A stretch of 64,000 nucleotides of DNA from Pseudomonadota bacterium (GTDB taxonomy: Bacteria; Pseudomonadota; Alphaproteobacteria; Micavibrionales; CSBR16-224), in contig CP053449.1 in the NCBI GenBank assembly GCA_013285465.1, positions 2,442,735-2,506,734 of the forward strand, given 5' to 3'. Of the stretch, positions 28,971-53,075 are shown in pieces. The translations under genes and the position numbers were made by a program. Numbering within the stretch: position 1 is the stretch's first letter; the number at the start of each line of letters is the position of its first letter. A model generated the notes under the pieces. The model was given only the letters and a program-made list of their open reading frames with translations. It was not told the DNA's origin and searched no databases.

Positions 28971-29065
28971 CGCAAAACCCCTGTATCCTTTGTTATCTTT
29001 GTTATATGTGCTACCACATGATGTAACAGAGCCTAGCAAAAAACCGGATGCAAAAACAGGTAATA

Positions 29066-32257: not shown

Positions 32258-33784
32258 CTAATCTTTGAAGCGCAGCGCAACGAAGCGGATTTCGCCGCCG
32301 CGTGAAATCAGCAGCAGAACGGAACGTTTTTTCGCTTTCTCCGCCGCTTTGACAGCCTTCTGCATGTCTTTCACGCTTGTTGCCGGTTTCTGGTCAATCT
32401 CGATAATCAAATCACCGGGCGCGATGCCTTTGCCTGCCGCAATACCTGCGGGATCAACCTCCGTCACCACGATACCGGCAGCCTCACGGTCAATATTATA
32501 GCGCTGCTGCAAGACGCGGTTCAGGGGGGAGACCGTCAGACCAAGAGAGGCGATCTTATCGGCATCAGCCGTGCCCGTCTCATCATCCGGCGTTTCCGCA
32601 CTGCCTGTGACCAGACCATTTTCCTCGGCTTTTTCAAGCTGCCCAAGCTTCACCTGCGCCGTCACGGTTTTACCTTTGCGCCACAAATGCAGATCGACTT
32701 TTTTGCCGATTTCGCTTTCCGCAACCATGCGCGGCAATTCACGCATTTGTTTGATCTGTTTGCCGTCAAAGCTGAGGATAATATCGCCCTGCTGCAATCC
32801 CGCAGCGGCGGCGGGGCCGTCATCTGTCACACTGGAAACCAGCGCACCATAGGCTTCTTTCATGCCCAAACTTTCCGCGATTTCATCTGTCACCTGCTGG
32901 ATACGGACACCCAGCCAGCCGCGCCGCGTCTGACCGTATTTAATCAGCTGATCTACCACCGGACGCACCAGCGATGACGGTACGGCAAAGCCGATTCCGA
33001 CACTGCCGCCCGAGGGCGAAAAGATCGCCGTATTCACACCGATGATCTCGCCTTTTAAATTGAACATCGGGCCGCCGGAATTACCGCGGTTGATGGAGGC
33101 ATCCGTCTGGATAAAATCATCATAAGGGCCGGCATTGATATCGCGGCGGCTGGCCGAGATAATCCCCGCCGTCACCGTACCGCCAAGGCCGAAAGGATTG
33201 CCGATTGCCAGCACCCAGTCACCGACGCGCGAGACTTCGCTGTCGCCCCAGTTTGCAGCAACCAGCGCTTTACTGCTTTTGACCTGCAAGACGGCGATAT
33301 CGGTTTTTTCATCCGTGCCGATAACCGTTGCATCCAGCGTTGTATCATCCTGCAAAATTACTTTAATTTCATCGGAATCGCGAATGACGTGATTATTGGT
33401 GACGACATAGCCTTTTTCGGCATCAATAATAAAGCCGGAGCCCAGTGACGCCGTCTGACGCGGTTGTGCCTGCGGCGCATTTTCATACTGTTCGAAAAAG
33501 TCGCGGAACATATCTTCGAAAGGTGATCCCGGCGGCAAATTCGGCATATTCGGCATGCCTTGCGGCGCCTCTATGGTTTGTGTCGTGGAAATATTCACCA
33601 CGGTCGGCAGCAATTTATCGGCCAGATCGGCGAAACCTTCCGCCGGTGCCGTAGAGGATGCCGCCGCAGCCGGTGTTACTTGCAGGTTTCCCGGCCCCGC
33701 AAGCAAAAACAGGGCGCATAACAGGCACGCCCCGTGCATAACAGTCCGAAGGAAAAATCTATTCCGTGTCTTTTCTTGTGTCAT
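32258..33784 (-). CDS. degP: DegP/DegQ-type periplasmic serine protease
   Basis: HtrA-family protease-chaperone. A signal peptide (residues 1-42, hydrophobic core CLLCALFLLAG) precedes a trypsin-like domain with catalytic His132 (NNHVI), Asp162 (KTDIAVL) and Ser236 (GNSGGPM). Two PDZ domains follow at about 285-370 and 410-500. At 508 residues it has the full DegP/DegQ layout. The DNA order hflC-DUF2065-degP is usual in alphaproteobacteria and suggests a shared quality-control operon. Start behind AAGGAGAAAG. Confidence 0.94.
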   Translation of the reverse strand: MTQEKTRNRFFLRTVMHGACLLCALFLLAGPGNLQVTPAAAASSTAPAEGFADLADKLLPTVVNISTTQTIEAPQGMPNMPNLPPGSPFEDMFRDFFEQYENAPQAQPRQTASLGSGFIIDAEKGYVVTNNHVIRDSDEIKVILQDDTTLDATVIGTDEKTDIAVLQVKSSKALVAANWGDSEVSRVGDWVLAIGNPFGLGGTVTAGIISASRRDINAGPYDDFIQTDASINRGNSGGPMFNLKGEIIGVNTAIFSPSGGSVGIGFAVPSSLVRPVVDQLIKYGQTRRGWLGVRIQQVTDEIAESLGMKEAYGALVSSVTDDGPAAAAGLQQGDIILSFDGKQIKQMRELPRMVAESEIGKKVDLHLWRKGKTVTAQVKLGQLEKAEENGLVTGSAETPDDETGTADADKIASLGLTVSPLNRVLQQRYNIDREAAGIVVTEVDPAGIAAGKGIAPGDLIIEIDQKPATSVKDMQKAVKAAEKAKKRSVLLLISRGGEIRFVALRFKD

Positions 33785-35023: not shown

Positions 35024-35050
35024 AAAAAAAGACCCGTCGGGGTCTTTTTA
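35024..35050. terminator. Bidirectional terminator between tRNA-Leu and hflC
   Basis: GACCC (35031-35035) and GGGTC (35040-35044) form a stem with a GTCG loop, flanked by A-runs on the left and T-runs on the right, so it can act on either strand. Confidence 0.7.
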
Positions 35051-35120
35051 TTTCCCACTTACGTCTAAATTCAGCCTGCGCCGATTATAAATCGGCTTGG
35101 CTTCATTAAGACATCCAGTG

Positions 35121-35325: not shown

Positions 35326-35875
35326 TCAATGTTTTGAATCTGGGTGCTTACCGGGAAGCAAACGCTTTGCCGATGCCGGAATCGATGTATATTTCATCGG
35401 CAGGATATCGGGTTTGGGTTCGCTGTCTTTATATTCTTTCCAGCGCATACCGATATTTTCCTGCATACCTTCGGGCATTTTGTCAAAAACGGTGACGTAA
35501 TGGTCAAGCATTTGCTTTTTGTTTTGTTCCAGCGTGTTTTTGCCGTTGGCGTAACGCATATGCGCCTCTTCCAGATCGGCCAGAACCAGCATCACGGTTT
35601 CAACATAAAGATTACCGTCCGAGCGGGATTTATGCGCGGTTTGCGCATCACGGAAAGCCTGCAGGGATTTGCCTTTGCCTTCGGTGTTAAAGTCGCAATT
35701 GGTTTCGTAATCCATTCTCCATGTGCCGTTTTCCTTGGTCGCGAAAAAGCGCATATAATAACCGCCGCCGACATCCGGTACGGGGTACGGGGAGTTTGCG
35801 GGTTGTCATTTTCTTTACGCGGCTCAGCGCCGTATCTTCCGATTTACGGTTAAATAGATTACGTAAAAAATCCAT
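35326..35875 (-). pseudogene. Hypothetical protein, frameshifted by 7-bp duplication
   Basis: Two overlapping minus-strand frames form one protein of about 180 residues. The first, from ATG 35875, gives MDFLRNLFNRKSEDTALSRV and runs into the wrong frame; the second continues GGYYMRFFATKENGTWRM to the stop at 35326. At the junction the heptamer TACGGGG (plus strand) is repeated in tandem (35779-35792). Removing one copy joins the frames as K-L-P-V-P-D-V-G-G-G-Y-Y. No known domain, no signal peptide; the C-terminus is Pro/Lys-rich. The start is supported by GGAGAG upstream. Confidence 0.65.
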
Positions 35876-36078
35876 AACATCTCTCCTGCTTAACTTAGTG
35901 ACATTGTATCCGGGCCATATGTATGCGGTGCGCCCATTATGTCGTCATTTTGATAAATGTAAACACATAACTTCTATTATTTTTCAATTATTGCGTCAAG
36001 GGGCTTTATTTTTTTGAAAAAATACAGTAGGTTTGTGGAACAGGAAACAAAAACATCTCATCACGGGAGAAACTGCGC

Positions 36079-39173: not shown

Positions 39174-40724
39174 ATGGATGACGCGGTACTTATTCTCGAT
39201 TTCGGTTCCCAATACACGCAGCTGATTGCGCGGCGCTTGCGCGAGGCGGGCGTTTATTGCGAAATTTTCGGCTGGTCATCAGACAAAGCCGTTGATTTTG
39301 CAAAACAATCCGAAACAAAAGGTATTATCCTCTCCGGCGGGCCGGAATCCGTCACGGAAAGCGGCGCACCGCATATTCCCGCCGCAATTTTTGATCTGGG
39401 CAAGCCGATTTTGGGCATTTGTTACGGTATGCAGGCACTGACCAAGCATTTCGGCGGCACGGTTGCGGCAGGCGAGACCCGCGAATTCGGCCATGCCAAT
39501 ATCGTCATTGATCACGGCAATCAGCTGTTCTCACAATTGCCTGAGGAAAATTTCTCCGTCTGGATGTCGCATGGCGACCATGTCACCGCCCCTGCGGAAG
39601 GTTTTGTCCTTGCCGCAAAATCCCATAACGGGCTGGTGGCCGCGATTGCCGATGATGCGCGCAAAATCTACGGGCTGCAATTCCATCCCGAAGTCACGCA
39701 TACGGCTTTCGGGCAGGATATTCTCCGCCGTTTTGCCATTGATATCTGCGGCTGCGCCGCAACATGGACGCCCGCCCATATCATTGAAACCGCCATCGAA
39801 AATGTGCGCCTGCAGGTCGGCAATAAACGCGTTATTCTCGGATTGTCGGGCGGGGTTGATTCCTCCGTGCTGGCCGCGCTGCTGGATAAGGCCGTCGGCG
39901 GCAATCTGACCTGTATTTTTGTCGATACGGGGCTGCTGCGTCTGAATGAAGGTGATCTGGTCATGGAGATGTTCGCCGCGCATAAAGGCATCAATGTCAT
40001 CCGCGTCAATGCGGAAGAAAAATTCATGTCCGCGCTGAAAGGCGTGGAAGACCCCGAAGACAAGCGCAAAATTATCGGGCGCTGCTTTATCGAGATTTTC
40101 GAGGTCGAGGCCGGAAAAATCGAAAACGCCGCCTTCCTCGCGCAAGGCACAATCTATCCCGATGTCATTGAATCCGCAGGCGCAGGCACAGGCGGCGGCG
40201 CACATGTGATTAAATCACATCACAATGTCGGCGGCCTCCCCGCCGAGATGGGGCTTGATCTGGTCGAGCCGTTGCGGCTGCTGTTCAAGGACGAAGTGCG
40301 CAAAATCGGCACCGAACTCGGCCTGCCGCATGAGATGGTTTACCGCCATCCCTTCCCCGGGCCGGGGCTGGGCGTACGCATTCTGGGCGAGGTGAAAAAA
40401 GACTATGCCGATCTGCTGCGCCGCGCCGATGATATTTTCATCAGCGAATTACGCGCCCATGATCTGTATGACAAAACCTCGCAGGCTTTCGCCGTTTTCC
40501 TGCCCGTCAAATCCGTCGGCGTGATGGGTGACGGCCGCGCCTATGATTACGTGATCGCGCTGCGCGCCGTGGAAACCATCGATTTCATGACGGCGAAATG
40601 GGCGCATCTGCCTTATGACTTCCTCGACCATGTCTCCCGCCGCATCGTCGGCGAAATCCGCGGCATCTCCCGCGTCGTCTATGATATTTCAGGAAAACCG
40701 CCTGCCACGATCGAGTGGGAATAA
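39174..40724 (+). CDS. guaA: GMP synthase (glutamine-hydrolysing)
   Basis: Converts XMP to GMP. The N-terminal amidotransferase domain starts [17 protein letters not shown] with nucleophile Cys in [10 protein letters not shown] and the His/Glu dyad in GLQFHPEV. The ATP-pyrophosphatase domain has the P-loop [15 protein letters not shown], and the C-terminal dimerisation domain ends in the family terminus P-P-A-T-I-E-W-E. 516 residues. The ATG at 39174 gives the usual length; its ribosome site is weak. It completes the guanine branch for the purine operon far upstream, and its 3' end borders the mobile island. Confidence 0.96.
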
Positions 40725-40740
40725 ATTCTTACAACATCGC

Positions 40741-40823
40741 CGTCACTCCCGCGAAAGCGGGAGTCCATCCGTCAACAGCCACATCTACCATCTTATGGAT
40801 TCCCGCTTGCACGGGGATGAGTA
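40741..40823. repeat. Inverted pair of REP-like palindromes
   Basis: The left unit has the stem CTCCCGC-GAAA-GCGGGAG (40746-40763) followed by TCCAT. The right unit (about 40795-40822) is an imperfect inverted copy, with ATGGATTCCCGC and CGGGGATGAG. Together they resemble a REP doublet (BIME-like) placed 17 bp after guaA. Confidence 0.65.
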
Positions 40824-40865
40824 ACTTTTCTTATATTACTGTTTTTGTTCATTATTTTGCGTTAT

Positions 40866-40881
40866 ACTTGTATATACAAGT
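40866..40881. promoter_or_regulatory. Perfect 16-bp palindrome upstream of the integrase
   Basis: ACTTGTATATACAAGT is an exact palindrome 88 bp before the integrase start. It could be an operator or part of the recombination site; nothing further can be said. Confidence 0.45.
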
Positions 40882-40920
40882 CCTGCACAGGAACCACAGA
40901 TCAATGACTTAGCAAAAATA

Positions 40921-40940
40921 TCTGCACGGTTTCTGCACAG
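40921..40940 (+). other. Possible integrase arm site, left end
   Basis: TCTGCACGGTTTCTGCACAG lies 30 bp before the integrase start. It contains two TCTGCAC units and matches 15 of 20 positions with the element at 52976-52995 at the other end of the island, in the same orientation. Arm-site function is inferred. Confidence 0.3.
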
Positions 40941-40969
40941 TTTTACAGCTTACGGGAACAGTATATATC

Positions 40970-42262
40970 ATGAGCTTTATTATCGACAAGGAAGAACTCA
41001 AACCCGGACTGATCGTCTTTCGCCGTGGTGATGTGGTACATAAAAACTGGTACTGCCGTATTAAGCTGCCCAAAGCAGACCGTTATAAAACCGTATCCCT
41101 TAAAACCTCAGACATACATGAAGCCCGTGAACGCGCCTATGATCATTATGCCGATGTCCGTTTCCGTTTAAAGCACGATGTGCCGATCTTCGATAAATCC
41201 TTCTATGACGTTGCCGTGGAATATACCGAAGTGCAGCGCCACCGCGCCCAAATGGGAGAGATTACCCATGAACGCGTCAAAAAGATTGCCTCTGTTATCA
41301 ATGCCCAGCTAAATCCTTATGCAGGAAGCACACAAATCAGCCTGATCGGTCAGGAGCGCTGGTCGGGTTATCCGGCATGGCGGCGGGAACACGGCGAAGG
41401 GCGCTTGCGGGAACAGGTCAGCGATGCCACCATCAAATTTGAAATGTCGATATTCGGCGCGATCATGAATTACGCCGTCAGAAAACGCTATATCCCCGCC
41501 AGTCATAAATTCGAGGGCAGACCGAATTTCAAAACCATGCGGCGGGATGCCTTTTCTCTGGAAGAATACCGCGCCCTGCACAGCAGAGGGCGGTCATGGG
41601 TGAAATCCGCACCAAAGCCCCAGAGTCTTTGGTACCGCACCATTGCCTATAACTTCGTCCTGATCATGTGCAATACGGGTATGCGCCCGCCGGAAGCGCG
41701 GAATCTGCGCTGGCGCGATATCTCGCGCGGCAAAGACAAGGACGGCAGAGAGTTGCTGATCCTCTCCGTCACCGGTAAAGACAAGATGCGGCAGCTTGTT
41801 GCGCCGGTGAGTGTCGGCGACTATCTGGAGCGCATCCGAAATATCTCTAAAGCCACAGAACCCGATGACCCTGTTTTCACCACCATCGACGGCAAACCGG
41901 TCAGTACATTATACAAAGCCCTTATCAGAGACCTGCTCATCACAGCAAAACTGCGCGACGGCCCGTCGGGTATTCCGCGTTCGACCTACAGTTTTCGTCA
42001 TACCTATGCCACTTTCCGCCTGAGCGAAGGCGTGGATGTGTATTTTCTGGCACAGCAGATGGGAACCTCGGTCAAGATGATCGAAGAGCATTACGGCCAT
42101 GTCAACGCCGTCAAACATGCGGATCGCGTGTTGCACGGTATGGGAAGTTGGGAGGTCGTCCCCTCAGACCCGTCTAAACCTGAAAACAGCAGGAGCGGTA
42201 AATCTGGAACGGCGCGTTCCAGACCGTCCCGGCTGCGCGGGAAGCGTAAAAATAAAGAATAG
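40970..42262 (+). CDS. Tyrosine recombinase / phage-type integrase
   Basis: A 430-residue site-specific recombinase. The catalytic domain shows the first Arg in NTGMRPPEARNLRW, the H-x-x-R-type box STYSFRHTYATF, and the nucleophile Tyr in KMIEEHYGHV. The N-terminal half is the SAM-like core-binding region, with a small arm-binding part at the start. The last 40 residues are basic and Ser/Pro-rich. It is the first gene after guaA and probably catalysed insertion of the island. The ribosome site (GGGA about 12 nt upstream) is weak, so expression may be low. Confidence 0.92.
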   Translation: MSFIIDKEELKPGLIVFRRGDVVHKNWYCRIKLPKADRYKTVSLKTSDIHEARERAYDHYADVRFRLKHDVPIFDKSFYDVAVEYTEVQRHRAQMGEITHERVKKIASVINAQLNPYAGSTQISLIGQERWSGYPAWRREHGEGRLREQVSDATIKFEMSIFGAIMNYAVRKRYIPASHKFEGRPNFKTMRRDAFSLEEYRALHSRGRSWVKSAPKPQSLWYRTIAYNFVLIMCNTGMRPPEARNLRWRDISRGKDKDGRELLILSVTGKDKMRQLVAPVSVGDYLERIRNISKATEPDDPVFTTIDGKPVSTLYKALIRDLLITAKLRDGPSGIPRSTYSFRHTYATFRLSEGVDVYFLAQQMGTSVKMIEEHYGHVNAVKHADRVLHGMGSWEVVPSDPSKPENSRSGKSGTARSRPSRLRGKRKNKE

Positions 42263-42338
42263 CACCATCTATTTTAAGGGCTGGCTGAAAACAGAACAGT
42301 GAGCCTCGCTGTTCCAGCCCGCCTCTGCCTTTTCTCGT

Positions 42339-42422
42339 CTCTCCGCTGCACCGCCGGTGCGGCTTAAAGCGGAGAGAACGGGAGTCGGGGCAGAAAAGCA
42401 GTTGCTTGTCGTTCCTGCCCCG
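42339..42422. repeat. Two strong intergenic hairpins
   Basis: CTCTCCGCT (42339-42347) pairs with AGCGGAGAG (42368-42376), enclosing a GCACC/GGTGC inner stem. Directly after it CGGGGCAG (42386-42393) pairs with CTGCCCCG (42415-42422). Neither has a T-run, so they are not classical terminators. Confidence 0.5.
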
Positions 42423-42467
42423 CTATGGTAAAAATAAGATATATCCAAAAGCAAGAAAGGCATTCTG

Positions 42468-42779
42468 ATGACGATTGAAATCCGCAGCAGGGAATACAAA
42501 GTCGAAAGTCATGTGGCCAAACTGCTGGCCAAAACGCACCGGGCGGCGATCAAGCTGGCGGATGAGCATCTGGTGGCACCGATCAACAATCTGATGAGGA
42601 ACCGCATCGGCAATCCGCAGGTTTTGGCTTTTGCGCTGATTGATCTGGCTTATTTTATCCTGCGCAAGAAACTGCCGCAGGACAAAGCCGGAGCAACCTT
42701 TGACGTGTTCGCGCATTTTGCCAAGCAACGCACAGAGAACAAACTTGCCGCTGACGAGCGTAAGAAAAAGCTGCATTAA
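42468..42779 (+). CDS. Small unknown island protein
   Basis: A 103-residue, Lys-rich protein I do not recognise. It starts MTIEIRSREYKVESHVAK behind GAAAGG, has a helical middle (PQVLAFALIDLAYFILRKKL) and a charged end. No membrane segment or motif. It converges on the truncated relaxase, 94 bp away. Confidence 0.55.
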   Translation: MTIEIRSREYKVESHVAKLLAKTHRAAIKLADEHLVAPINNLMRNRIGNPQVLAFALIDLAYFILRKKLPQDKAGATFDVFAHFAKQRTENKLAADERKKKLH

Positions 42780-42873
42780 AAGCGACTTTTGTCCCACACC
42801 AATTAAGCATTGTGTTCTCGGATTCCCGTCAGGGAATTAATTGTATCGTGTCCCGCTTTTTCTACCGCTTTTT

Positions 42874-43587
42874 CTACACACCGAGCCAGCGCGAGAGCGA
42901 ATAAACTTCCCCTTCAAAATCCACAGCGACATAGCCGCGCCGATCACCTTTGGCCAGATAATAACCGCGCTCTTGCAGAGCGCCTGCAAAGCTCTGCTTG
43001 TTATCCGAGCCGTTCCAGCATTGCTGGAAGAATGCCTTTAGCTTGACCGGATCGTCTTTCAGCCGTTCCGCCTGCTGCCATTCATGGAGAGTGTAATTGG
43101 TGGGGCTACTGTCTTCTTTGCGGATAAAGCCTTTCGGCAGTTTCCAGCCGTGATGGATGAACAGCTCTTTTGCAACAGAAAACAGCTTGTTCTTAAAATG
43201 CGACATCTGCACGGCTTTGAGCTTATGCCCGGTATCATAGATGCGCGACCAGACACAATGGCAATGCCTGCGGCCTTTCTTTTCATGGAAGACGATGACG
43301 CGGGGCTGGCCTTCCAGCCCCAGAGACTTTTCAATGCGGTCTATCGCGTTTTCAAAGTCCTCGATTGTCGCAATTTCGCCTTCCGGCGGATTAAGGCTGA
43401 GAGAAAACAGATATTGCCGACACATCGTCGCAAGACTGGTCATTTCCGCTTCCTGCAACGCGCCCAGCACGTCTTGCGCTATAAATCCCCGTATTTCATG
43501 GACGGTGACATGCTCATTCTCGTCACCTTTGAGGAGATGCGCAGCCAGCGCGGCAGCGCCTTTGCGCTGGCTGGCTTTCAGGATCAT
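42874..43587 (-). CDS. Relaxase/mobilization nuclease, C-terminally truncated
   Basis: The 237 residues match the N-terminal part of a MOBP/VirD2-like relaxase: AALAAHLLKGDENEHVTVHE, FLFSLSLNPPEGE and the metal-binding His cluster FHEKKGRRHCHCVWSRI near residues 100-115. Such relaxases nick oriT and pilot the strand. The frame stops at SLSRWLGV, where relatives usually continue for more than a hundred residues with a linker or helicase/primase part, so it is probably truncated. It overlaps mobC by 4 bp, as in a mobilization operon. Confidence 0.75.
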   Translation of the reverse strand: MILKASQRKGAAALAAHLLKGDENEHVTVHEIRGFIAQDVLGALQEAEMTSLATMCRQYLFSLSLNPPEGEIATIEDFENAIDRIEKSLGLEGQPRVIVFHEKKGRRHCHCVWSRIYDTGHKLKAVQMSHFKNKLFSVAKELFIHHGWKLPKGFIRKEDSSPTNYTLHEWQQAERLKDDPVKLKAFFQQCWNGSDNKQSFAGALQERGYYLAKGDRRGYVAVDFEGEVYSLSRWLGV

Positions 43588-43994
43588 TGGCTTTCTCTGG
43601 ATTTTTGCGTCACTTTTGTCTTTATTGGGCGCCCCAGCGCCACAGAAAGCTCCTCGCGCATCTCAAGCACGGCATGACAGGCTTCATGGAGCAGGGCATG
43701 TGTTTCCGCGTCTAGCGGCAGAGCGCCGCTGTTGCAGGCTTTGGCAATCTGGTTGAGATTGCCGGAGATACGGCTGTTGCCCAGACGATGCAACAGATGT
43801 TCGATCAGTTCCTTGTTTTCAACATATGAAATCGCGCGGCGCGGTGAAGGCATATCAAACAGCATGAATCGGATATAGGCGCTGACCGGCATCCGCCCGG
43901 CGCTGTCTCTCAGCGCCTGCTTTTCCCCGTCCGTGGCGCGAAACGTCACCGGAGAGGAACGCTCTGCTCCTTTATTTTGACCCTTTGCTTCCAT
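43584..43994 (-). CDS. mobC: MobC-like relaxosome protein
   Basis: A 136-residue relaxosome accessory protein. The N-terminal VTFRATDGEKQALRDSAGRM looks like a ribbon-helix-helix DNA-binding region, and SGNLNQIAKACNSGALPL is the MobC signature (family: N-N-L-N-Q-I-A). It helps the relaxase at oriT. Translationally coupled to the relaxase gene downstream; oriT is expected in the noncoding stretch upstream of its start. Confidence 0.82.
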   Translation of the reverse strand: MEAKGQNKGAERSSPVTFRATDGEKQALRDSAGRMPVSAYIRFMLFDMPSPRRAISYVENKELIEHLLHRLGNSRISGNLNQIAKACNSGALPLDAETHALLHEACHAVLEMREELSVALGRPIKTKVTQKSRESQ

Positions 43995-44644
43995 ATCACT
44001 GCCTATCCTTTTATTTTACCATGAGGGAGGACATGCTTCATTTTGCGCCGCACAAAAAGCGGCGGATTACCGGCATGTTCAAAAAGCCGGAATTGCTTGC
44101 AAACCGCCTGTTTCTGTGTATAAAATGCCGCAGAGGCGCGGCTGCCCAAAAAACGCAGATAAGGCTTTGCGATGCCGTACGACCTTCCCCCGAAAATCAC
44201 AAAAACACTCCGAATCAACCACTCGTCCATTATCGGCAAGATGTGCGCGTGTACTACACGGTTAACCTTCCGTTAACCTATACCCGCGCAAATCTTGGCA
44301 AAGGAGGCGCTAAAAGCCGCCCTCCCGTTGCATCCCTCCCGGCTGAAAACAGGCCGCGTATTGCGATCCTGTTTTTCAAACATCCTTGGCGTTTGATCCC
44401 GCGTCAAAGGAGGAGACGTGCCTCTCTCCCCTTTAACAATACCCCATCGCTTCAAGGGCATGTTCATAGCCCCTGAAAACCCTCGACCAAAAGGAGAAGT
44501 CTCTCTCCCTTTGGAAACTCATCGCCAAAGACATTCCGCTCTCTTTTGAAACATCGGGCAAAGGGCTTATCCGCCCCTTGCAACCCCGTTCTTCAGCCTG
44601 CCTCAGAAAAAGAAGCCTTTTGTGCTAACGGAATGCGGGAATAT
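43995..44644. other. Noncoding region, probable oriT area
   Basis: About 650 bp upstream of mobC without a gene I can support. It contains a direct repeat GTTAACC/GTTAACC around 44260-44280, an inverted repeat AAAACAGG/CCTGTTTT (near 44346-44376) and two imperfect copies of a 75-80 bp unit (44405-44562). Position next to mobC and repeat content fit an origin of transfer, but I do not recognise a specific nic consensus. Confidence 0.4.
44405..44562 (+). repeat. Imperfect tandem repeat of about 75-80 bp
   Basis: Unit 1 (44405-44486) and unit 2 (44487-44562) share CAAAGGAG/CAAAAGGAG, CTCTCTCCC, the CATCGC-CAA core and a C-x-T-GAAA-C-x-CG block in the same order. They are degenerate, as old duplications would be. 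Confidence 0.4.
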
Positions 44645-44667
44645 TTGTTATAATGGGGATATAACAA
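44645..44667. promoter_or_regulatory. Operator-like inverted repeat over the mntA -10 box
   Basis: TTGTTATA (44645-44652) and TATAACAA (44660-44667) are exact inverted copies with a 7-bp spacer; a TATAAT hexamer (44649-44654) overlaps the left arm. This is the arrangement expected for autoregulation of a toxin-antitoxin operon. Confidence 0.45.
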
Positions 44668-44698
44668 AACGCAGCGACAAAAGGACGCTTTTTGTATT

Positions 44699-44989
44699 AT
44701 GAGACCCTCTGACGCACTGACAGCAAAACGCCATGCCGTACTGGATGCGGCCACCCGCTTTCGGGCGGCCAATCCGCGTGTTTTCGGCTCGGTTCTGCAC
44801 GGCACCGACCGCGACGGCAGCGATCTCGATTTGCTGGTGGACACGCTGCCGGGTGCGACATTGTTTGATCTCGGCGGATTGCAAATCGAACTGGAAGAAC
44901 TGCTCGGCGTACGCGTCGATGTGCTGACACCGGGCGATTTGCCGCCGAAATTCCGTGAGCATGTGCTGTCCGAGGCGCGTCCGGTATGA
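44699..44989 (+). CDS. mntA: MNT-domain nucleotidyltransferase (MntA-type antitoxin)
   Basis: A 96-residue minimal nucleotidyltransferase with the motif G30-S31-x10-D42-x-D44 (FGSVLHGTDRDGSDLDLLVD). In characterised MntA-HepT systems this enzyme AMPylates the HEPN toxin and so neutralises it. It overlaps the HEPN gene by 4 bp. An RNA hairpin (ACAAAA...TTTTTGT, 44677-44695) lies over the AAAGGA ribosome site and might modulate translation. Confidence 0.85.
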   Translation: MRPSDALTAKRHAVLDAATRFRAANPRVFGSVLHGTDRDGSDLDLLVDTLPGATLFDLGGLQIELEELLGVRVDVLTPGDLPPKFREHVLSEARPV

Positions 44990-45327
44990 AGGAAGACCGT
45001 TGCAATGATTATCTCGGCCATATCCGCGAGGCGGCCTCTGACTCATGCGATTTTATACGCGGCATGAGCCAAGAAGAATTTCTGGCAGATAAACGCACCC
45101 AGAAAGCCGTGATTATGAATCTGGTCATCATCGGCGAGGCCGCCACCAAGATCATGGATCAATATCCGGATTTTCCCGCGCAGCATCCACAAATTCCGTG
45201 GCGTAATATGCGCGGTATGCGCAACCGCATTGCGCACGGCTATTTTGATGTTGATTTGAACGTCGTTTGGGAGACCGTTCAGACGGCTCTTCCCGATTTG
45301 CTCGACAAATTAAACGCTATTGCATAG
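44986..45327 (+). CDS. hepT: HEPN-domain (DUF86) RNase toxin, HepT-type
   Basis: A 113-residue HEPN protein. The nuclease motif R-x4-H-x-Y is complete: R79, H84 and Y86 in RNRIAHGYF, Tyr being the residue modified by MntA in studied systems. The helical core IMNLVIIGEAATKIMD is typical for DUF86. Forms a toxin-antitoxin pair with the upstream gene; its role is presumably island maintenance or abortive phage defence. Confidence 0.87.
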   Translation: MKEDRCNDYLGHIREAASDSCDFIRGMSQEEFLADKRTQKAVIMNLVIIGEAATKIMDQYPDFPAQHPQIPWRNMRGMRNRIAHGYFDVDLNVVWETVQTALPDLLDKLNAIA

Positions 45328-45490
45328 ATAATCCGTTACTTTTGCGCTGTAATATGTGCCGGATGCGGCTTAGCAGTTCCCCGGTGATCCGCTTTGCCGG
45401 AGTGCCTTCCGGCAGCGCCTGATATTCGGCCAGCAGAATGCGGTAAAGCCTTTGCCGTGCAACACTTCGCGCAAGGCAAGCCCCGACACG
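45317..45490 (-). pseudogene. Unidentified coding remnant
   Basis: In the 244-bp gap after hepT the minus strand holds an open stretch without a start that reads RQRLYRILLAEYQALPEG and TPAKRITGELLSRIRHILQR before a stop at 45317. The composition looks coding but I cannot name the parent. It overlaps the end of hepT by a few bases. Probably debris of earlier insertion events. Confidence 0.3.
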
Positions 45491-45571
45491 CTTGCAACAA
45501 ATGCCACACGCTCCTTAAACTTCGCTGGGTAATTATTCCTCACTTACTGTCCGAATTTTTGGAACCACCTC

Positions 45572-46222
45572 TTAATAACTCTCCGCCAGAATCTCTTTAG
45601 CATCGGTATCTACCAAGTCCGCCGCTGTCAGCGCCGGAAAGCAGCGGAGATATTTCTCTACAATAAAGTAACCCAAAGAATAGCCGACCCAGCCGGGGAA
45701 TGTTTTGTTATCGCCAAAAAACCATGCGATATGGTCGTAGTCCTCATTTTCCAGTTCTTTAGACGATTTCTTAAGCCATGTTTTGATTTCACCCTCTACC
45801 AATGCGCAGCACCATTTCGGCACTTCACCCTTAAAGACCTGCAACGAGAAATGATCCGCAAGACCTTCTGTAACCAATGCCTCGCCAAGTGTCTTGCCGT
45901 ATCCGACTGTTTTCCAGCGGCAGGCATGGTGATATTCATGTGCCAATACTGCTGGCAGCTTTTCCTCTATAATCATATCCAAATCAGAACAGCCGGTATC
46001 AAAATAGATAAAGATCGTCGAGGCGCTTGTTGATCGGCCGCCGATGTATTCACCGGGCACAGTCGCCGCAGGCGCGTGCAAAAACACAATATCCAGATTA
46101 GTCTGCGGTAAAAAACGGTTAATCTCTGACAGCGCCTGAAGGCTAACCATCCGTATCTTTTCGGCCTGATCGTCTTGGAAATCGCCTACCGCATTCAAAA
46201 TATGTAGAGTTACACCATCCAT
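45572..46222 (-). CDS. DUF2268-like putative Zn-dependent protease
   Basis: A 216-residue protein with a zincin motif, LAHEYHHACRW, followed 20 residues later by EALVTEGLADHFS, giving H-E-x-x-H plus a downstream Glu. This matches the DUF2268 family of predicted zinc proteases. No signal peptide, so it should act in the cytoplasm. The ATG at 46222 lies next to the inverted repeat AAAACAG/CTGTTTT (46223-46238); a GTG at 46273 is an alternative. It is divergent from the kinase-led cargo operon and shares its upstream region. Confidence 0.65.
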   Translation of the reverse strand: MDGVTLHILNAVGDFQDDQAEKIRMVSLQALSEINRFLPQTNLDIVFLHAPAATVPGEYIGGRSTSASTIFIYFDTGCSDLDMIIEEKLPAVLAHEYHHACRWKTVGYGKTLGEALVTEGLADHFSLQVFKGEVPKWCCALVEGEIKTWLKKSSKELENEDYDHIAWFFGDNKTFPGWVGYSLGYFIVEKYLRCFPALTAADLVDTDAKEILAESY

Positions 46223-46312
46223 AAAACAGCTCTGTTTTATATGAAACTTCTCTGATGGTACGCTGACAACCACAGTTCACGCAATTACAATAATATTTTA
46301 GCCTAAAATAGA

Positions 46313-46341
46313 TTGGACTAATCATAATAATGAAGTATTAA
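46313..46341 (+). promoter_or_regulatory. Putative promoter of the cargo operon
   Basis: TTGGAC (46313-46318), 17 bp, TATTAA (46336-46341), 43 bp before the kinase start, in a very AT-rich stretch. Confidence 0.35.
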
Positions 46342-46384
46342 TAAATATTATGTATCATATGGACGGCTATTGATTGGAGAAGTT

Positions 46385-47005
46385 ATGCTGATTGCAATAG
46401 ACGGATTAGACGGGGTTGGAAAGACTTCGGTGATAGAGCTGCTTGCAAATGAGCAGGGCTGGATCAATATCGCCTCTGAAGTCAAAGATATGCGACAGAT
46501 TGTGCGTTCTGCACCGAAACATACTTCTGCTGTAAATCGCCTTCTTAATCTTGCTTTTCTGCGTCATATGTCCGACACGGCCAAGGAGTTTTTGAAAAAG
46601 GGGAAAACCGTTCTGCTGGACAGGTATACGCCCTCTCATAGTCACTATGCTAAAATTTTTAACAAAAAAGCGATTAAGGCTGGAGAGTTCCCGAACATTG
46701 ATCCGGCAGACCTCAACCTTGCCAAGCCGGACTTAGTTATCATTCTGAAGGTCAGGGAAAGTGTTCGCCAGACCCGGCTTGCGGCACGTGGAGAACAAAC
46801 GCCGCATGAATTGACACTTTCGAAAGAGCATAAAGTCAGAGAAGCCATACAAAAACGGCTGGAAAAAGATGCGGACATCGTGATTGATACCTCGGATTTA
46901 AGCGTGAAAGAGACCGCTGAACTCATCAAGAAGCATATTGAGGATTATAAAAATTCACCAAAGAAAAAGCCGAATACCGCAAAACCTCGTAACCCGGAAG
47001 TTTAA
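46385..47005 (+). CDS. Thymidylate-kinase-like P-loop nucleotide kinase
   Basis: A 206-residue P-loop kinase of the dTMP-kinase fold: P-loop IDGLDGVGKTS (residues 5-15), the D-R-Y motif in VLLDRYTPSHS and a lid-like segment RLAARGEQTPHE. A full housekeeping Tmk is encoded at 59706-60422, so this copy probably phosphorylates another nucleotide. It opens a six-gene operon; the next ATG follows its stop codon directly. Start chosen at the ATG behind TTGGAGAAG. Its C-terminus is Lys/Pro-rich. Substrate unknown. Confidence 0.75.
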   Translation: MLIAIDGLDGVGKTSVIELLANEQGWINIASEVKDMRQIVRSAPKHTSAVNRLLNLAFLRHMSDTAKEFLKKGKTVLLDRYTPSHSHYAKIFNKKAIKAGEFPNIDPADLNLAKPDLVIILKVRESVRQTRLAARGEQTPHELTLSKEHKVREAIQKRLEKDADIVIDTSDLSVKETAELIKKHIEDYKNSPKKKPNTAKPRNPEV

Positions 47006-48145
47006 ATGGCGACCCCATTATCCATACAGCCGCCGATTCTGCGTCACGCTTCCTGGATTGTCGTCAACAGTATCCAAGGATGCCCCAAAAGCTGCGCATA
47101 TTGCTTTCTGACGCCGATAGGGCAAACAGGGGTTGCGCCACAGGAGGTATGCTCTCCAAGTGAAGCTATACGTCTTCTTGTGCAAAATAAACACTATACG
47201 CCTGAAACCCCCATCTGCTTCTTTACCAGTACCGACCCGTTTGCAACACCGTTTGTTGAGCAGAAGCTTAAAGAGGCTTTGGACGAGTTTATCAGAGCAG
47301 AGTTAAAAAATCCGGTCTGCTTCGTCACTAAATGTTGTCCGTCAAAAGCCATTATCCCGACGCTCGAAAAAATGATGGCGCAGAGTATTCCGGTTATTCC
47401 CTACATCAGCTATTCGGGATTGAATAACAAGATTGAACGTGGTGTGATTGCAGAAAAGAACAGAGCAGCGTTTCCGTTTTTCAAAGATATCGGGCTACCA
47501 GTTATCCACTATTGGCGGCCTTTGTTGCCGCAGAATAGTACGCTGGATGTTTTAACAGCGGTTGGCGAATATGTATCTCAATACGCAAAGGCATCTGTTA
47601 TCACAGGATTGAAACTGTATAAAGAAATGCAGGAACAAATTCCTTTCTGGCCACAAGTGCAAGAACGTATGGACGAAGCTGTCAAAGCCGAATGCGTCTG
47701 GCCGAAAAACGCGCTGGAAAAAACCTATGAGATTGCAGCTCGGCTGGGATTACCTGTTTATCAGTCAAATAGCTGCGCTCTTAATTACGTTCTTGGACGT
47801 GAAGATAAAAATGCGTTCTGGGGTAGCAACGTCTGCACCGATCATAACAAATGCCCTCCTTTTCAGCGCGAAAAATGCAGGGCATTCTATGCGAAAAGAA
47901 ATATAAATAAGGCTGATGTTATCAACTTTCTTGCACGGTTAAAAATAGATGCAGATGAGAGAAATGTTGATGTATCACATGATCAGACACCGGTTGTGCG
48001 CTTAACGGGGCTAAAGGTGGATACTGCCGCAATTGCAACGTTGCGCGAGCAATTGAACGCTGTCATTGAAACAAAGTTCGACCGTGGTTATTATTGGGGT
48101 GCTTCCATAGCGGGAGAAAAACCTTTCGTGGTCGAGGATGATTGA
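47006..48145 (+). CDS. Radical SAM enzyme of unknown substrate
   Basis: A 379-residue radical SAM protein. The 4Fe-4S site is C26-x3-C30-x2-C33 (IQGCPKSCAYCFLTP). The middle part resembles the spore-photoproduct-lyase-like branch (CFFTSTDPFATP, CFVTKCCPSKAII, IPYISYSGLN). Near the C-terminus C277, C283 and C291, with Cys at about 255, could bind a second cluster or a metal. Placed between a nucleotide kinase and a MazG-like protein, it may act on a nucleotide, which is inference only. It overlaps the next gene by 8 bp. Confidence 0.82.
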   Translation: MATPLSIQPPILRHASWIVVNSIQGCPKSCAYCFLTPIGQTGVAPQEVCSPSEAIRLLVQNKHYTPETPICFFTSTDPFATPFVEQKLKEALDEFIRAELKNPVCFVTKCCPSKAIIPTLEKMMAQSIPVIPYISYSGLNNKIERGVIAEKNRAAFPFFKDIGLPVIHYWRPLLPQNSTLDVLTAVGEYVSQYAKASVITGLKLYKEMQEQIPFWPQVQERMDEAVKAECVWPKNALEKTYEIAARLGLPVYQSNSCALNYVLGREDKNAFWGSNVCTDHNKCPPFQREKCRAFYAKRNINKADVINFLARLKIDADERNVDVSHDQTPVVRLTGLKVDTAAIATLREQLNAVIETKFDRGYYWGASIAGEKPFVVEDD

Positions 48146-48806
48146 AGAAAAAGCTATAGACGGATTTTTATATAGTGCAAAAGCGTTGCATAACGCTTTT
48201 CAGGATACATCCGTTTGCTCTTGGAATTTGCAGGATATTGTTTCCGAGTTGTGTATCCAGACAGGGCATCTGGTTCAGGCAACTGGCAAGAATTCCTTGA
48301 TGGATGAAAAAGGCCGCAACCTTTCTCACCTTGGAGATGAAGCCGCCGATGTTCTCTTGCAAGTGCTTGTGCTGTCGTATCTCTTCCCAATGGATTGGCG
48401 TAAAGTACGTCTGAGGGCAAGCGAGATGAATACCGCTTCGGAAGATCAACTCTTGAAATCCATTGTGCAGGGAGGACTCCAGCTTCTTGAATCGTCTCTG
48501 CGGATTAGCGGTAAACGCTTTCCACAAGCGCGGCACGCAAGTTATGGCGGAGAAGAAGGGTTCTTTTCAAAAACGCTTTCAGATATTGCAGCCTGTTTGT
48601 TAGCGCTTGTTGATAGATGTAATGCGGACATAGCCGCCGAGTTTGCCACTATGGAAAAATCAGCGAGAGAATTTCTTTCCATTTATACTGAGTACGAGAA
48701 AGAAGTCCATAACTTAGCCCTTGATATATCTAGAATTGACCATAAAATACAAGAAAAACTAAAACAACTTCATAAAGATAACGAGAGAGAAGATGGCACT
48801 GATTGA
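48138..48806 (+). CDS. MazG-like protein
   Basis: A 222-residue helical protein with a MazG/NTP-pyrophosphohydrolase-like core: SELCIQTGHLVQ (E37) and LGDEAADVLLQVLVLSYL (E68-x-x-D71). The second acid of the first ExxE pair is Ile, so the site is degenerate and catalysis is uncertain. The C-terminal 60 residues form a charged, coiled-coil-like helix. It overlaps both neighbours. Possible role: hydrolysis or binding of a (modified) nucleoside triphosphate; alternatively a structural partner. Confidence 0.6.
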   Translation: MIEEKAIDGFLYSAKALHNAFQDTSVCSWNLQDIVSELCIQTGHLVQATGKNSLMDEKGRNLSHLGDEAADVLLQVLVLSYLFPMDWRKVRLRASEMNTASEDQLLKSIVQGGLQLLESSLRISGKRFPQARHASYGGEEGFFSKTLSDIAACLLALVDRCNADIAAEFATMEKSAREFLSIYTEYEKEVHNLALDISRIDHKIQEKLKQLHKDNEREDGTD

Positions 48807-49458
48807 CGTTTACACAGACAGAAACGAACCTGCGGGCTATACGGTTGAGAAGAAAGAAGCTCATGCCAAAGGCTTATGGCATAGAGTCTTTACCTGTCTC
48901 GTCATCAATACCGACAATAAAACAGCATTTCTTCAAAAGAAAACACCCGGGCGCTACTCGTTCGACAGGCCGGATCACATGGATGTTACTGTCGGCGGTC
49001 ACTATGAAGCGGGAGAAAGCATAGAAGCAGGCGTGAGAGAAATGGAGGAAGAAATAGGCCTCAAAGTGCCTTTTGAGCAGCTTGTTTCACTAGGGCAGCG
49101 TCAAACATCTGTTATCCTTGCCGAAGACTACGATAACAACGAATTTCAGCACATTTTTCTGCTGCCCACGAAAACCAAGATTACCGAGTTTAAATACACA
49201 GATACCGAAGTGCGTGGCATCGTGGAGGTTCCGTTGATCGAAGGCATCAAGCTCATGCGCGGGGAAATCGCTGAATTGAAAGTGGAAGGTTGCTTCGTTA
49301 ACCCTGAAAAGCCTGAAGGTAAAGAAGTCGTCGACATGACGATAACCATGGAAGACTTTGTTCCGGCTTATCTCAAGACAGATGAATTCATGATCCGCTT
49401 GTTTGTTGCGGCACATCGCTATTTTCAGGGTGAAGATCCCAGTTTCATCTATTGGTGA
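48793..49458 (+). CDS. Nudix hydrolase (IPP isomerase-like subgroup)
   Basis: A 221-residue Nudix protein with a complete Nudix box at residues 69-91: GHYEAGE followed by REMEEEIGL, matching G-x5-E-x7-R-E-U-x-E-E-x-G-U. The flanking VTVGGHYEAGES resembles the isopentenyl-diphosphate-isomerase-like Nudix group that hydrolyses nucleoside or sugar diphosphates. It overlaps the MazG-like gene by 14 bp, and the next start lies 8 bp beyond its stop. Substrate unknown; presumably a diphosphate-linked intermediate of the cluster. Confidence 0.85.
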   Translation: MALIDVYTDRNEPAGYTVEKKEAHAKGLWHRVFTCLVINTDNKTAFLQKKTPGRYSFDRPDHMDVTVGGHYEAGESIEAGVREMEEEIGLKVPFEQLVSLGQRQTSVILAEDYDNNEFQHIFLLPTKTKITEFKYTDTEVRGIVEVPLIEGIKLMRGEIAELKVEGCFVNPEKPEGKEVVDMTITMEDFVPAYLKTDEFMIRLFVAAHRYFQGEDPSFIYW

Positions 49459-49466
49459 TTTTTGAA

Positions 49467-50333
49467 ATGACCAGTGTTGTTGTTGTCATTCAGGCTGGAG
49501 GTGATGGAACAAGGCTTTGGCCTTTATCCACGACAAAACGTCCCAAGCAATTCTTAAAAACTGGCAAATATAGCTTTTTTCAGCAAACTGTTCAACGTGC
49601 ACAGAAATTACGTGAAAGGTTCGATGTACGTTTTGTCGTACTTGGTAATGATCACACAAAAGGCTTGCTTTTGAAGCAATGTCGAGAAGTTGACTTTGTG
49701 CCGGATGATATCCTGATACAACCCTGCAACCGTAACACGGCCCCCGCCCTTATTGGTGTGGCGGCGTATATTGAAATGGTCTATGGGAGCAAGATCCCGA
49801 CCTGTTTCATGCCATGCGACCATGTTTTTGGGGATAGCAGTACTGTCTGTCGTCATCTAGCGGAAGCTGTCAGGCTTACCGAAGAAAAGGCATTCGTTTC
49901 CCTTGTGGTTAACCCTGAAAAGTATAACAGCCAATATGGATACTACTTTGGAAGTGCGGATACATCGGAAGCGTTTTTTGTCGCCCGCCCTTCTTTGGGT
50001 GTATTTGGTCAGATGAAAGAAAAAGGCCTTCACCCTTTCTGGGATTGCGGTGTATTTGTCACGACAGCGAGTTTCTTGCTGGGGAAAGCAGTTGAGGGAG
50101 ATAGAGATTTTGCGCGGCGTTGTAAGGAAACTGTTCGTCAGGCAGTTAAATCTGATTTGTTTCTGATATTCAACCCCGTGCTTTACAAGGTACTTCCTTC
50201 TGTTCCCATTACAACCCTTGTTATGCAGAAGCTGGAAAAAATCGGAATAGTTCCCTTATCAACGACTTGGACAGATATAGGGAATTGGGCATCTTTCCTA
50301 GGCTGGTACTTTAAGGCCGGGTGGCGAAAATGA
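49467..50333 (+). CDS. Mannose-1-phosphate guanylyltransferase-like nucleotidyltransferase
   Basis: A 288-residue nucleotidyltransferase. The signature is IQAGGDGTRLWPLSTTKRPK followed by QFL at residues 8-30, with NRNTAPALIGVAAY and MPCDHVF further on, as in ManC-type enzymes. It is shorter than ManC (about 350 residues without the isomerase domain) and has Asp for the usual Ser in GGSGTRLW. It therefore activates a sugar 1-phosphate, perhaps with GTP; the sugar is not known. The ATG at 49467 gives the canonical start; the frame extends five codons upstream. Overlaps the epimerase by 4 bp. Confidence 0.78.
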   Translation: MTSVVVVIQAGGDGTRLWPLSTTKRPKQFLKTGKYSFFQQTVQRAQKLRERFDVRFVVLGNDHTKGLLLKQCREVDFVPDDILIQPCNRNTAPALIGVAAYIEMVYGSKIPTCFMPCDHVFGDSSTVCRHLAEAVRLTEEKAFVSLVVNPEKYNSQYGYYFGSADTSEAFFVARPSLGVFGQMKEKGLHPFWDCGVFVTTASFLLGKAVEGDRDFARRCKETVRQAVKSDLFLIFNPVLYKVLPSVPITTLVMQKLEKIGIVPLSTTWTDIGNWASFLGWYFKAGWRK

Positions 50334-51481
50334 AAGTAGCCGTCCTTATCGGAACACGCCCGGATGCCATCAAAATGGCTCCGCTTGTCCTGCGCATGCA
50401 ACAGAAAGAAAGCGGTTTTGAGGCCATTGTCATTTCAACGGGGCAGCATAGAGATTTGTTGGGACACGGATTGGAGTGCTTTGGCATTGCCCCCGATGTT
50501 GATTTGGCCGTCATGCGTGATAATGACGATTTGCACAGCCTGACTGGACGTATGATACCCGCGATAGCGTCTGTACTTGAAAAAGAGAGGCCGGATATTG
50601 TCCTTGTGCATGGGGATACGACTACAGCACTTTCTGCGGCTTTGGCAGCATTTTATGTCCAAACTCCCGTCGGACACGTAGAAGCAGGCCTCACAACGGG
50701 AAACAAAAATACTCCGTATCCCGAAGAAGTAAACCGCCGCCTTATATCAAGAATAGCAGATATCCATTTTGCACCGACTTTTCTTGCTAAAAGTAACCTT
50801 ATGCGTTCTGGTATTGAAGAAGGCCGAATAGCCGTGACGGGTAACACTCTTATTGATGCCGTTCAGTATATAGAGAAAACGTTTCCCGGGGATAATGGTC
50901 CCAAACAGGGAAAGATGGTTCTGGTTACATGCCATCGCAGAGAGAAGTCGGATAGTGATTTATTAGGCATTTATGATGCTATGTGCCGCATAGCAGATGA
51001 TCAGTCACAGCCCGATATAGTTTTTATTCTGCACAAAAGGAAAGAGCAAAGGTCGTTTTTTTTGCTGAGAGACAAGACGCATCCGCGTATAAGGATGATC
51101 GAACCCCTAGAATATTCGCAATTTATAAATCTCCTAAAAGACGCAGATGTTATCTTAACGGATTCAGGTGGAATACAGGAAGAAGCTTCTTATTTCAGTA
51201 AGCCGCTTGTTATTTTAAGAAACGAAACTGAACGTACAGAAATTTTAGAAAGTCAGCTTGTCAAGGTTGTTGGTTACAGATCAACGGACATCGTGGACCA
51301 CACCTGTCGATTTCTTGCAGAAATCGATATTCAAGTTTCTGCGAAAATATCAAGCGCATGTATCTTTGGTGATGGGGTTGCTTGTGATCGAATTGTCAAA
51401 GCGTTGCGTAACTGGAAACGTGGCCATCATTTATTTCTGTCCACGAGCGAGGAATTTCACCCTGTGTCAACCCCCGTTTAG
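50330..51481 (+). CDS. Non-hydrolysing UDP-GlcNAc 2-epimerase-like
   Basis: A 383-residue GT-B-fold epimerase of the WecB type. Motifs: LIGTRPDAIKMAPLV, ISTGQHRDLL, VHGDTTTALSAALAAF, GHVEAGLTTG and YPEEVNRRLI, and ILTDSGGIQEEASYF. WecB interconverts UDP-GlcNAc and UDP-ManNAc. In this operon, without glycosyltransferases or polymer export genes, it may act on a non-standard nucleotide sugar. It is the last gene of the six; IS debris follows within 30 bp. An in-frame GTG at 50321 is an alternative start. Confidence 0.85.
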   Translation: MKVAVLIGTRPDAIKMAPLVLRMQQKESGFEAIVISTGQHRDLLGHGLECFGIAPDVDLAVMRDNDDLHSLTGRMIPAIASVLEKERPDIVLVHGDTTTALSAALAAFYVQTPVGHVEAGLTTGNKNTPYPEEVNRRLISRIADIHFAPTFLAKSNLMRSGIEEGRIAVTGNTLIDAVQYIEKTFPGDNGPKQGKMVLVTCHRREKSDSDLLGIYDAMCRIADDQSQPDIVFILHKRKEQRSFFLLRDKTHPRIRMIEPLEYSQFINLLKDADVILTDSGGIQEEASYFSKPLVILRNETERTEILESQLVKVVGYRSTDIVDHTCRFLAEIDIQVSAKISSACIFGDGVACDRIVKALRNWKRGHHLFLSTSEEFHPVSTPV

Positions 51482-51507
51482 GTGTCCAGTTTTAGAGTTA
51501 TAATTTA

Positions 51508-51615
51508 TCAGCTTGTGCGGTTTAAAGGAAGGCGGCGGATGTGTTTGTATAGATACCGCCATTGCTCGGTCAGGATCTGCGCTTCTTTTATTGTGTCCCC
51601 GTAATGCCTGAGCTA
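51508..51615 (-). pseudogene. IS3-family transposase C-terminal remnant
   Basis: The minus strand reads LRHYGDTIKEAQILTEQWRY before a stop at 51508. It resembles the C-terminal region of IS3-type OrfB, where K/R-E-A-Q-x-L-I-E-Q-W-R precedes the R-P-H-S-x-L box; that box has decayed here. No start codon, no inverted repeats seen. It marks the 3' border of the cargo operon. Confidence 0.4.
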
Positions 51616-51959
51616 GAGACAGCTGTTTGAGGTCATTTTCCGTCACCCTGTATATCTTCTAAATGCCAGTCATTTGTCTCTTCTCCCTTTCTAAAGCTTG
51701 CCTATCGCCGCTGACCGGCGCGGTCGTCTCTTATGTGCGAACCTGACGGCATGCGCCCTGCGGCGCAACGCTCAGCTAGCGGTTTCTTCCCCGGCTGTGC
51801 CTTCCTCGCGGAAAACAAGAAACAGCCCGCTTTTACGCGTCCTTCACTTTGTTGCGGCTCCTTTGGAGTGCGCCTTTGGCTTGGCCTGCCGTCTATCGGT
51901 TGCCATGAGACGGCCGCGGCGGTCGCGGCCAACAAACGCCAAGCAAAGGTAAGAAGACA
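51616..51959. other. GC-rich leader upstream of ardC
   Basis: About 340 bp without a gene I can support. The second half is strikingly GC-rich (GGCCGCGGCGGTCGCGGCC near 51912-51930 is nearly palindromic) compared with the AT-rich operon before it. Small frames exist on both strands but none has a ribosome site and coding look. It probably holds the ardC promoter and regulatory structure. Confidence 0.4.
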
Positions 51960-52850
51960 ATGACAAAACAACATTCAGATATTTACAGCCGGGTAACGCA
52001 GAACATCATCACCGCCATCGAGAAAGGCGCAGGCGACTGGCAAATGCCCTGGCATCAAGCCGGATCAGGCCTCAACCGCCCGAACAACATCAACACCGGC
52101 AATCACTATCGCGGCATCAATATCCTGAACCTCTGGGTATCAGCCCAAGCACAAGGCTTCAGCACCGGAACATGGGGAACCTATAAGCAATGGAAAGAGA
52201 AAGACTGCCAAGTCCGCAAAGGCGAAAAATCCTCTCTCGTCATCTTCTACAAAACAGACGAGATCGAAAACACCGATGGTGAGCTTGAAACAAGATATAT
52301 CGCCAGAGCCTCTTACGTCTTTAACGCCGATCAGGTCGATGGCTATCAAGCGCCGCCAGCACCCACACCGGAACCGGTCGAAACTATCGATAATGTCGAG
52401 CAGTTCGTCAAACACACCAATGCAACAATCAAGCATACCGGCAACAGCGCCTTTTACCGTCCGGCAGATGACAGCATCACGATGCCCGAGCAAAGCCGCT
52501 TTCTCGGATCAAAGACCAGCACAGCAACAGAAGCCTATTACTCCACGCTGCTGCATGAACTGTCACACTGGACAGGTGCAAAGCACCGTCTGGACAGAAC
52601 ATTCGGCAAACGCTTCGGCGATAATGCCTATGCGGTGGAAGAACTGGTCGCGGAACTGAGTGCAGCATTCCTCTGTGCCGATCTCGGTATCACAGTAGAA
52701 CCGAGAAAAGACCACGCAGCATATCTTGAGAACTGGCTGACAGTCCTCAAAGCCGACAAGAAAGCGATCTTCACCGCCGCAAGTCAGGCAGCGAAAGCAG
52801 CAGACTTTCTGAAAGCCCTGCAACCTCAAACGCAACAGGAGGCGGCTTAG
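51960..52850 (+). CDS. ardC: ArdC-like antirestriction protein
   Basis: A 296-residue protein of the ArdC type. The N-terminal part (residues 5-125) is the ssDNA-binding DUF1738 domain (YSRVTQNIITAIEKGAGDWQ, NHYRGINILNLW, KGEKSSLVIFYK). The C-terminal part is a zincin with H-E-x-x-H in LLHELSHWTGAKHRLDR. ArdC proteins protect incoming plasmid DNA from restriction and are typical of mobile elements. It is the last gene of the island before the right border. Confidence 0.87.
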   Translation: MTKQHSDIYSRVTQNIITAIEKGAGDWQMPWHQAGSGLNRPNNINTGNHYRGINILNLWVSAQAQGFSTGTWGTYKQWKEKDCQVRKGEKSSLVIFYKTDEIENTDGELETRYIARASYVFNADQVDGYQAPPAPTPEPVETIDNVEQFVKHTNATIKHTGNSAFYRPADDSITMPEQSRFLGSKTSTATEAYYSTLLHELSHWTGAKHRLDRTFGKRFGDNAYAVEELVAELSAAFLCADLGITVEPRKDHAAYLENWLTVLKADKKAIFTAASQAAKAADFLKALQPQTQQEAA

Positions 52851-53048
52851 GCCGTCTCCAACTGCTTCAATTTTTCTTCATGAACAGAACAGCCCCTATC
52901 GACAAAATCACATGGACAAATGTCAAAAATTAGGCCATATTTAAAGAAGAAATTTCCTCAAAAATAAAAGAAAAATCTGCACAACATCTACACAGATGAA
53001 AATGTGCTATTTTATTCTTTTATTTTCAACGCGCTATAATGCATTACG
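52851..53048. other. Right end of the island, AT-rich
   Basis: Noncoding, AT-rich. Contains the element TCTGCACAACATCTACACAG (52976-52995) that resembles the left-end element at 40921-40940. No exact repeat of the guaA end is visible. Confidence 0.35.
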
Positions 53049-53071
53049 CATTGCGCGGGAATGACGGAGAG
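53049..53071. repeat. Partial REP-like sequence
   Basis: CATTGCGCGGGAATGACGG resembles one half of the REP-like units at 40741-40823 (reverse complement CCGTCATTCCCGCG). Lies just before the chromosomal esterase gene. Confidence 0.4.
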
Positions 53072-53075
53072 GGTG

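Follow-up and report, generated by a model that had tools for sequence, protein, structure and literature searches.

Frameshifts produced by short tandem duplications through slipped-strand mispairing belong to a general class of mutation. The duplication described here shares with that class an exact head-to-tail copy, a 2-nt microhomology at the ends, restriction to one lineage and a length that is not a multiple of three; it differs in the particular gene alone, and an origin inside the cell is something that we infer for this case. A more specific parallel is the 6-bp tandem repeat of mutL in Salmonella and E. coli, which, in the part of the published account used here, switches its copy number (PMC2955026). 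Both loci hold a short tandem unit within a coding gene, with a copy number that slippage can change. As far as that part of the account goes, three copies of the mutL repeat are functional and the 6-bp change keeps the frame, whereas here the state of the relatives is one copy and the change is out of frame. A third comparison is provided by the residual indel errors of long-read bacterial assemblies. In the portion of PMC8442456 on which we draw, indels are the main error class of the assemblies tested, most residual errors are located in homopolymers, and the largest difference between users is a 4-bp indel in a tandem repeat. The present locus is similar to these errors in that small insertions break the frame of conserved genes in a one-contig genome, but the errors in that portion of the source mostly concern homopolymer length, whereas those seen here are 4- and 7-bp tandem copies.

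The window, i.e., the whole stretch of 64,000 nt that was analysed, represents positions 2442735-2506734 of a one-contig genome (G000) of 2,673,443 bases. The initial annotation had reported TACGGGG twice in tandem at 35779-35792, splitting a hypothetical gene, and both points are confirmed: the duplication is present in the window, and the gene is open, with one copy of the heptamer, in the same-genus relatives G001 and G002. The exact 14-mer TACGGGGTACGGGG at 35779-35792 has no other match in the window (mean of 0.00 in 100 dinucleotide-preserving shuffles). The whole period-7 run on the minus strand covers 35777-35792, that is 16 nt, or two heptamer copies and 2 nt of microhomology (GG on the plus strand), and the additional unit of 7 nt shifts the frame by +1. 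This unit is identical to the neighbouring one throughout. As a result, the minus-strand gene at 35875-35326 is divided into a 62-aa ORF (35687-35875) and a 142-aa frame (35326-35754). The former begins with the native ATG at 35875, behind a good Shine-Dalgarno sequence (AGGAGAG at 35881-35887, minus strand, duplex of -7.4 kcal/mol), and reads through about 28 native codons into the repeat, after which it continues as an out-of-frame tail; the latter has a 96% identity with the open 180-aa protein of G001. Tandem heptamers as such are at chance level in the window (6, where 20 third-order Markov copies averaged 5.4). What chance does not account for is that the frame breaks at the repeat and that the gene is open, with one copy, in both same-genus relatives and likewise open in each of the 14 further carriers of the family detected in the order. 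Exact 9-bp tandem repeats, a length that keeps the frame, were also observed at 166-183, 14946-14963, 28988-29005 (outside the part aligned to G001) and 33539-33556, four versus a mean of 0.4 in 20 Markov copies, a null that ignores coding structure. Enrichment of tandem repeats was considered as an explanation and set aside, since these 9-bp repeats keep the frame, the heptamers are at their expected number and the null takes no account of coding structure.

A search with the 142-aa frame detected the gene in 7 of 55 genomes, the genome under study being one of the 55. The genes of G001 and G002 are open over 180 aa from the aligned start and carry a single heptamer copy across the aligned site, and that of G006 is open over 185 aa. 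When an alignment of six open relatives was used as the query, the family was found in 15 of the 142 genomes of the order, each genome set searched holding one genome per species. Fourteen of these 15 carriers have a single open frame of 178-229 aa with no stops, and only G000 has the gene in two pieces. A pattern-based, non-exhaustive search beyond the order returned three loci, labelled Alphaproteobacteria bacterium (M3014, CSBr16_224) and Micavibrio sp. Among the genomes searched, the family was found only in this one alphaproteobacterial order. The family to which the broken gene (35326-35875) and its relatives L002-L007 belong is uncharacterised, and its proteins share a conserved TTxxLPxP segment close to the N-terminus. 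In several genomes the family member is adjacent to lipB, a gene identified as such by sequence reading, which lies divergently beside it in the window and in L002, L003, L004 and L007. Neither Pfam nor NCBIfam gave a family at E 0.1 for any of the six relatives, and Pfam gave none at E 1 for the window frame. The structure model of the open G001 protein (mean pLDDT of 71.3, pTM of 0.68) had no PDB match at E 0.001 or better in a fold search, the best being 0.012. Elsewhere in the window, a region of about 12.3 kb (40721-53050) is absent from G001, where its flanks adjoin (L067). Judged by its sequence, the gene at 40970-42262 in this region, next to the 3′ end of guaA, is integrase-like, and no exact direct repeat of at least 10 nt was found between 40601-41000 and 52801-53300.

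A second gene of the window is broken in the same manner. The acyl-CoA dehydrogenase gene fadE (5028-7344, plus strand, named by reading the sequence) is split at 5777-5785 by a 4-bp tandem duplication, GTCTGTCTG, a period-4 run with a +1 frameshift. Its counterpart in G001 is an open ORF of 771 aa, and one unbroken match spans the site in G002. The earlier claim that two short tandem duplications, both shifting by +1, break two genes is supported: both genes are open in G001, and the unit lengths of 4 and 7 bp each exceed a multiple of three by one. We regard the fadE lesion as an independent event, of the same common type as the 7-bp duplication. Both lesions are very young or are absent from the cell (a consensus artefact), because coding is conserved past the 7-bp lesion and on either side of the fadE lesion. 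Specifically, 36 of the 143 codons past the 7-bp lesion (stop included) differ between the window and G001, 31 synonymously and 5 nonsynonymously. With G002 as outgroup, the window branch has 15 synonymous and 1 nonsynonymous unambiguous changes and the G001 branch 9 and 0, while 11 changes, 4 of them nonsynonymous, are ambiguous as to branch. On the assumption that nonsynonymous changes outnumber synonymous ones by about 2.5 to 1 in a broken gene, the time since the break is at most about 13% of the window branch; allowing 3 nonsynonymous and 18 synonymous changes on that branch raises the bound to 17%. For fadE, the window and G001 differ by 72 synonymous and 6 nonsynonymous codons before the lesion and by 100 and 18 after it.

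From the two lesions it had initially been argued that either slippage is frequent in this strain, through a mismatch-repair defect or phase variation, or the assembly carries a systematic error. A count of tandem-duplication frameshifts, run here on a sample of the genome, upholds the two lesions as real in the sequence and speaks against the wider frequency. We compared 1,264,000 bases of G000 (the window and 60 stretches) with 63 pieces of G001 totalling 582,534 bases; 65 alignment blocks passed the cut-offs (at least 500 columns and at least 78% identity), giving 274,150 columns with 585 indels. The insertion count was made without G002, without L059 and L069 (whose contigs are shared with L142 and L065), and without insertions below 4 or above 40 bp or broken by a further gap. 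It yielded 79 readable insertions of 4-40 bp in G000 and 41 in G001. Among them, G000 has three exact tandem copies (both window lesions plus a 6-bp copy that keeps the frame) and G001 none, but one near-exact copy; no size other than 4, 6 and 7 bp occurs among the exact ones. Exact tandem insertions of 4-40 bp in G000 that break the frame thus amount to 2 in the 32,495 window columns and 0 in the 241,655 columns elsewhere. Frequent slippage in the strain is not supported by two such insertions in 274,150 columns, both in the window, nor is a systematic assembly error of the tandem-duplication type by the lack of any further case outside it. Both lesions lie within the 12% of compared columns that is window, but their clustering there is an unfair test, as the window was chosen for these events, and an even rate is not proved either. 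An insertion of 13 bp relative to G001 was also observed at L128:5370, in an ORF that is open in G001; it resembles an older, imperfect tandem duplication and falls below the 80% cut for tandem copies.

In 1.264 Mb, a frame-switch screen of 4502 out-of-frame tandem repeats returned 13 hits, and its wrong-direction control 22 raw hits; it is therefore noisy and picks up mostly things other than broken genes. When the 13 hits were read, 11 proved to be gene junctions; in L017 (pcm) the break is at a base run close to, but distinct from, the repeat; and fadE is the sole gene among them that is broken at a tandem repeat. The screen needs 180 open bases on each side, which makes it blind to the 7-bp lesion and to any like it. 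Because probable non-genic ORFs overwhelmed a first comparison of split proteins, a second one was restricted to ORFs with a codon score above 0.1. Queried against G000, 597 coding-like ORFs of G001 had 247 full-length matches and 2 split ones (one of them fadE), in a comparison that missed the 7-bp gene itself; in the opposite direction, 1269 ORFs of G000 had 241 full-length matches and 3 split ones. The second split in G000 (L095), located at the 5′ extremity of its ORF, probably reflects a difference in start site. No excess of indel frameshifts over the relatives was found in this ORF sample (2 split of 597 versus 3 of 1269). Inspection of the mismatch-repair genes of G000 showed mutS to be full-length (model positions 1-838 of 840, open frame of 919 aa), as is mutL (positions 1-553 of 555, 621 aa), contrary to the suspected defect.

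Taken together, we consider a single recent slippage frameshift, ordinary in kind, the probable explanation of the 7-bp duplication (a probability of roughly 0.65, judged from the sequence comparisons). In the single-copy state the heptamer would have been flanked by GG on either side. Since the run consists of 2 × 7 + 2 nt, a microhomology of 2 nt is available for slippage; the probable course of events is that the new strand annealed again at the incorrect GG and a second heptamer copy was synthesised, so that 7 bp would have been duplicated in one slipped-strand event inside an uncharacterised gene. Both this mechanism and an origin in the cell rather than in the assembly are things that we infer. 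The outcome would be either loss of function or an N-terminally truncated product initiated at the ATG at 35754.

The strongest competitor, possible though unlikely, is that the heptamer duplication, and the fadE tetramer with it, are absent from the cell and represent local consensus errors. G000, a single contig of 2.67 Mb, may be a long-read assembly with residual indel errors, the main error class in the assemblies covered by the portion of PMC8442456 cited above. The two broken genes are otherwise well conserved and show no decay, and the near-absence of nonsynonymous change is also what an artefact would give. In addition, there is a burst of small indels at the start of the same assembly: the first 1.5 kb of the contig (G000:C1:1-1500) has 15 gaps relative to G001, 12 of them of 1 nt, with several of the gaps falling in base runs; two genes that read as surE and pcm are split there (L017:1-1950, equal to G000:C1:1-1950). 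In the sampled interior, by comparison, indels of 1-2 nt number 1.36 per kb, and the burst probably reflects insufficient polishing of the consensus near the end of the contig. However, tandem duplications of 4 and 7 bp are not homopolymer errors, the sampled interior is clean in the ORF comparison, and neither gene contains another indel within 1 kb of its lesion. The other indels listed relative to G001 within 1 kb of the 7-bp lesion are at 35916 and 35924, before the gene start, and at 35024-35113, beyond its end. The clean interior and the intact remainder of both genes favour real mutations, although they do not settle the matter.

Within the slippage reading, it is also conceivable, albeit doubtful, that the lesion is tolerated and that the 142-aa C-terminal part is still made from a new start codon. 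The sole unambiguous nonsynonymous change on the window branch turns ATC (Ile in both G001 and G002) into ATG at 35752-35754 (minus strand), eight codons past the lesion. Seven nt before it is GGCGGCGG (35762-35769, minus strand), a putative Shine-Dalgarno-like stretch that is part of the conserved coding sequence. Its predicted pairing with the anti-Shine-Dalgarno sequence, -5.7 kcal/mol, is within the range of 16 gene starts of the window (0.6 to -8.6 kcal/mol), and is equalled or beaten by 7% of 1083 plus-strand ATGs of the window. The frame past the ATG retains the 96% identity with G001 given above. On the other hand, the truncated product would lack residues 1-38. Of the 20 invariant columns shared by six relatives, it would miss six (the start M, T24, T25, L28, P29, and P31), and with them the conserved TTxxLPxP segment and one of the two ten-residue blocks with the highest model confidence (21-30, pLDDT of 90). 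Moreover, one coincidence noticed after the fact is weak evidence, and the case for rescue by the internal ATG is suggestive only. That the duplication is real and the change from Ile to Met a compensating mutation, by which the lineage would have swapped the full-length protein for an N-terminally truncated one, seems improbable on these data.

Phase variation through changes in the copy number of the heptamer is highly improbable. A tandem duplication can revert by slippage, and copy-number switching is described for the three-copy 6-bp repeat of Salmonella mutL in the cited part of PMC2955026. Here, however, a multi-copy tract kept in relatives was not found, with merely two copies in the window and one in both same-genus species, and the other 14 family members of the order are single open frames, so that this part of the initial annotation is not sustained. 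Least credible of all is a mutator strain, in which a mismatch-repair defect would bring about many slippage frameshifts: two tandem-duplication frameshifts inside 64 kb would fit it, but mutS and mutL are full-length, the columns outside the window hold no further out-of-frame exact tandem insertion of 4-40 bp, and, as mismatch repair acts poorly on 7-nt loops, even a defect would rather predict homopolymer indels.

For users of this genome, neither fadE nor the gene beside lipB should receive a pseudogene label before the reads have been checked. With respect to the organism, two frame-breaking tandem duplications in one window need not imply a mutator or a systematic error.
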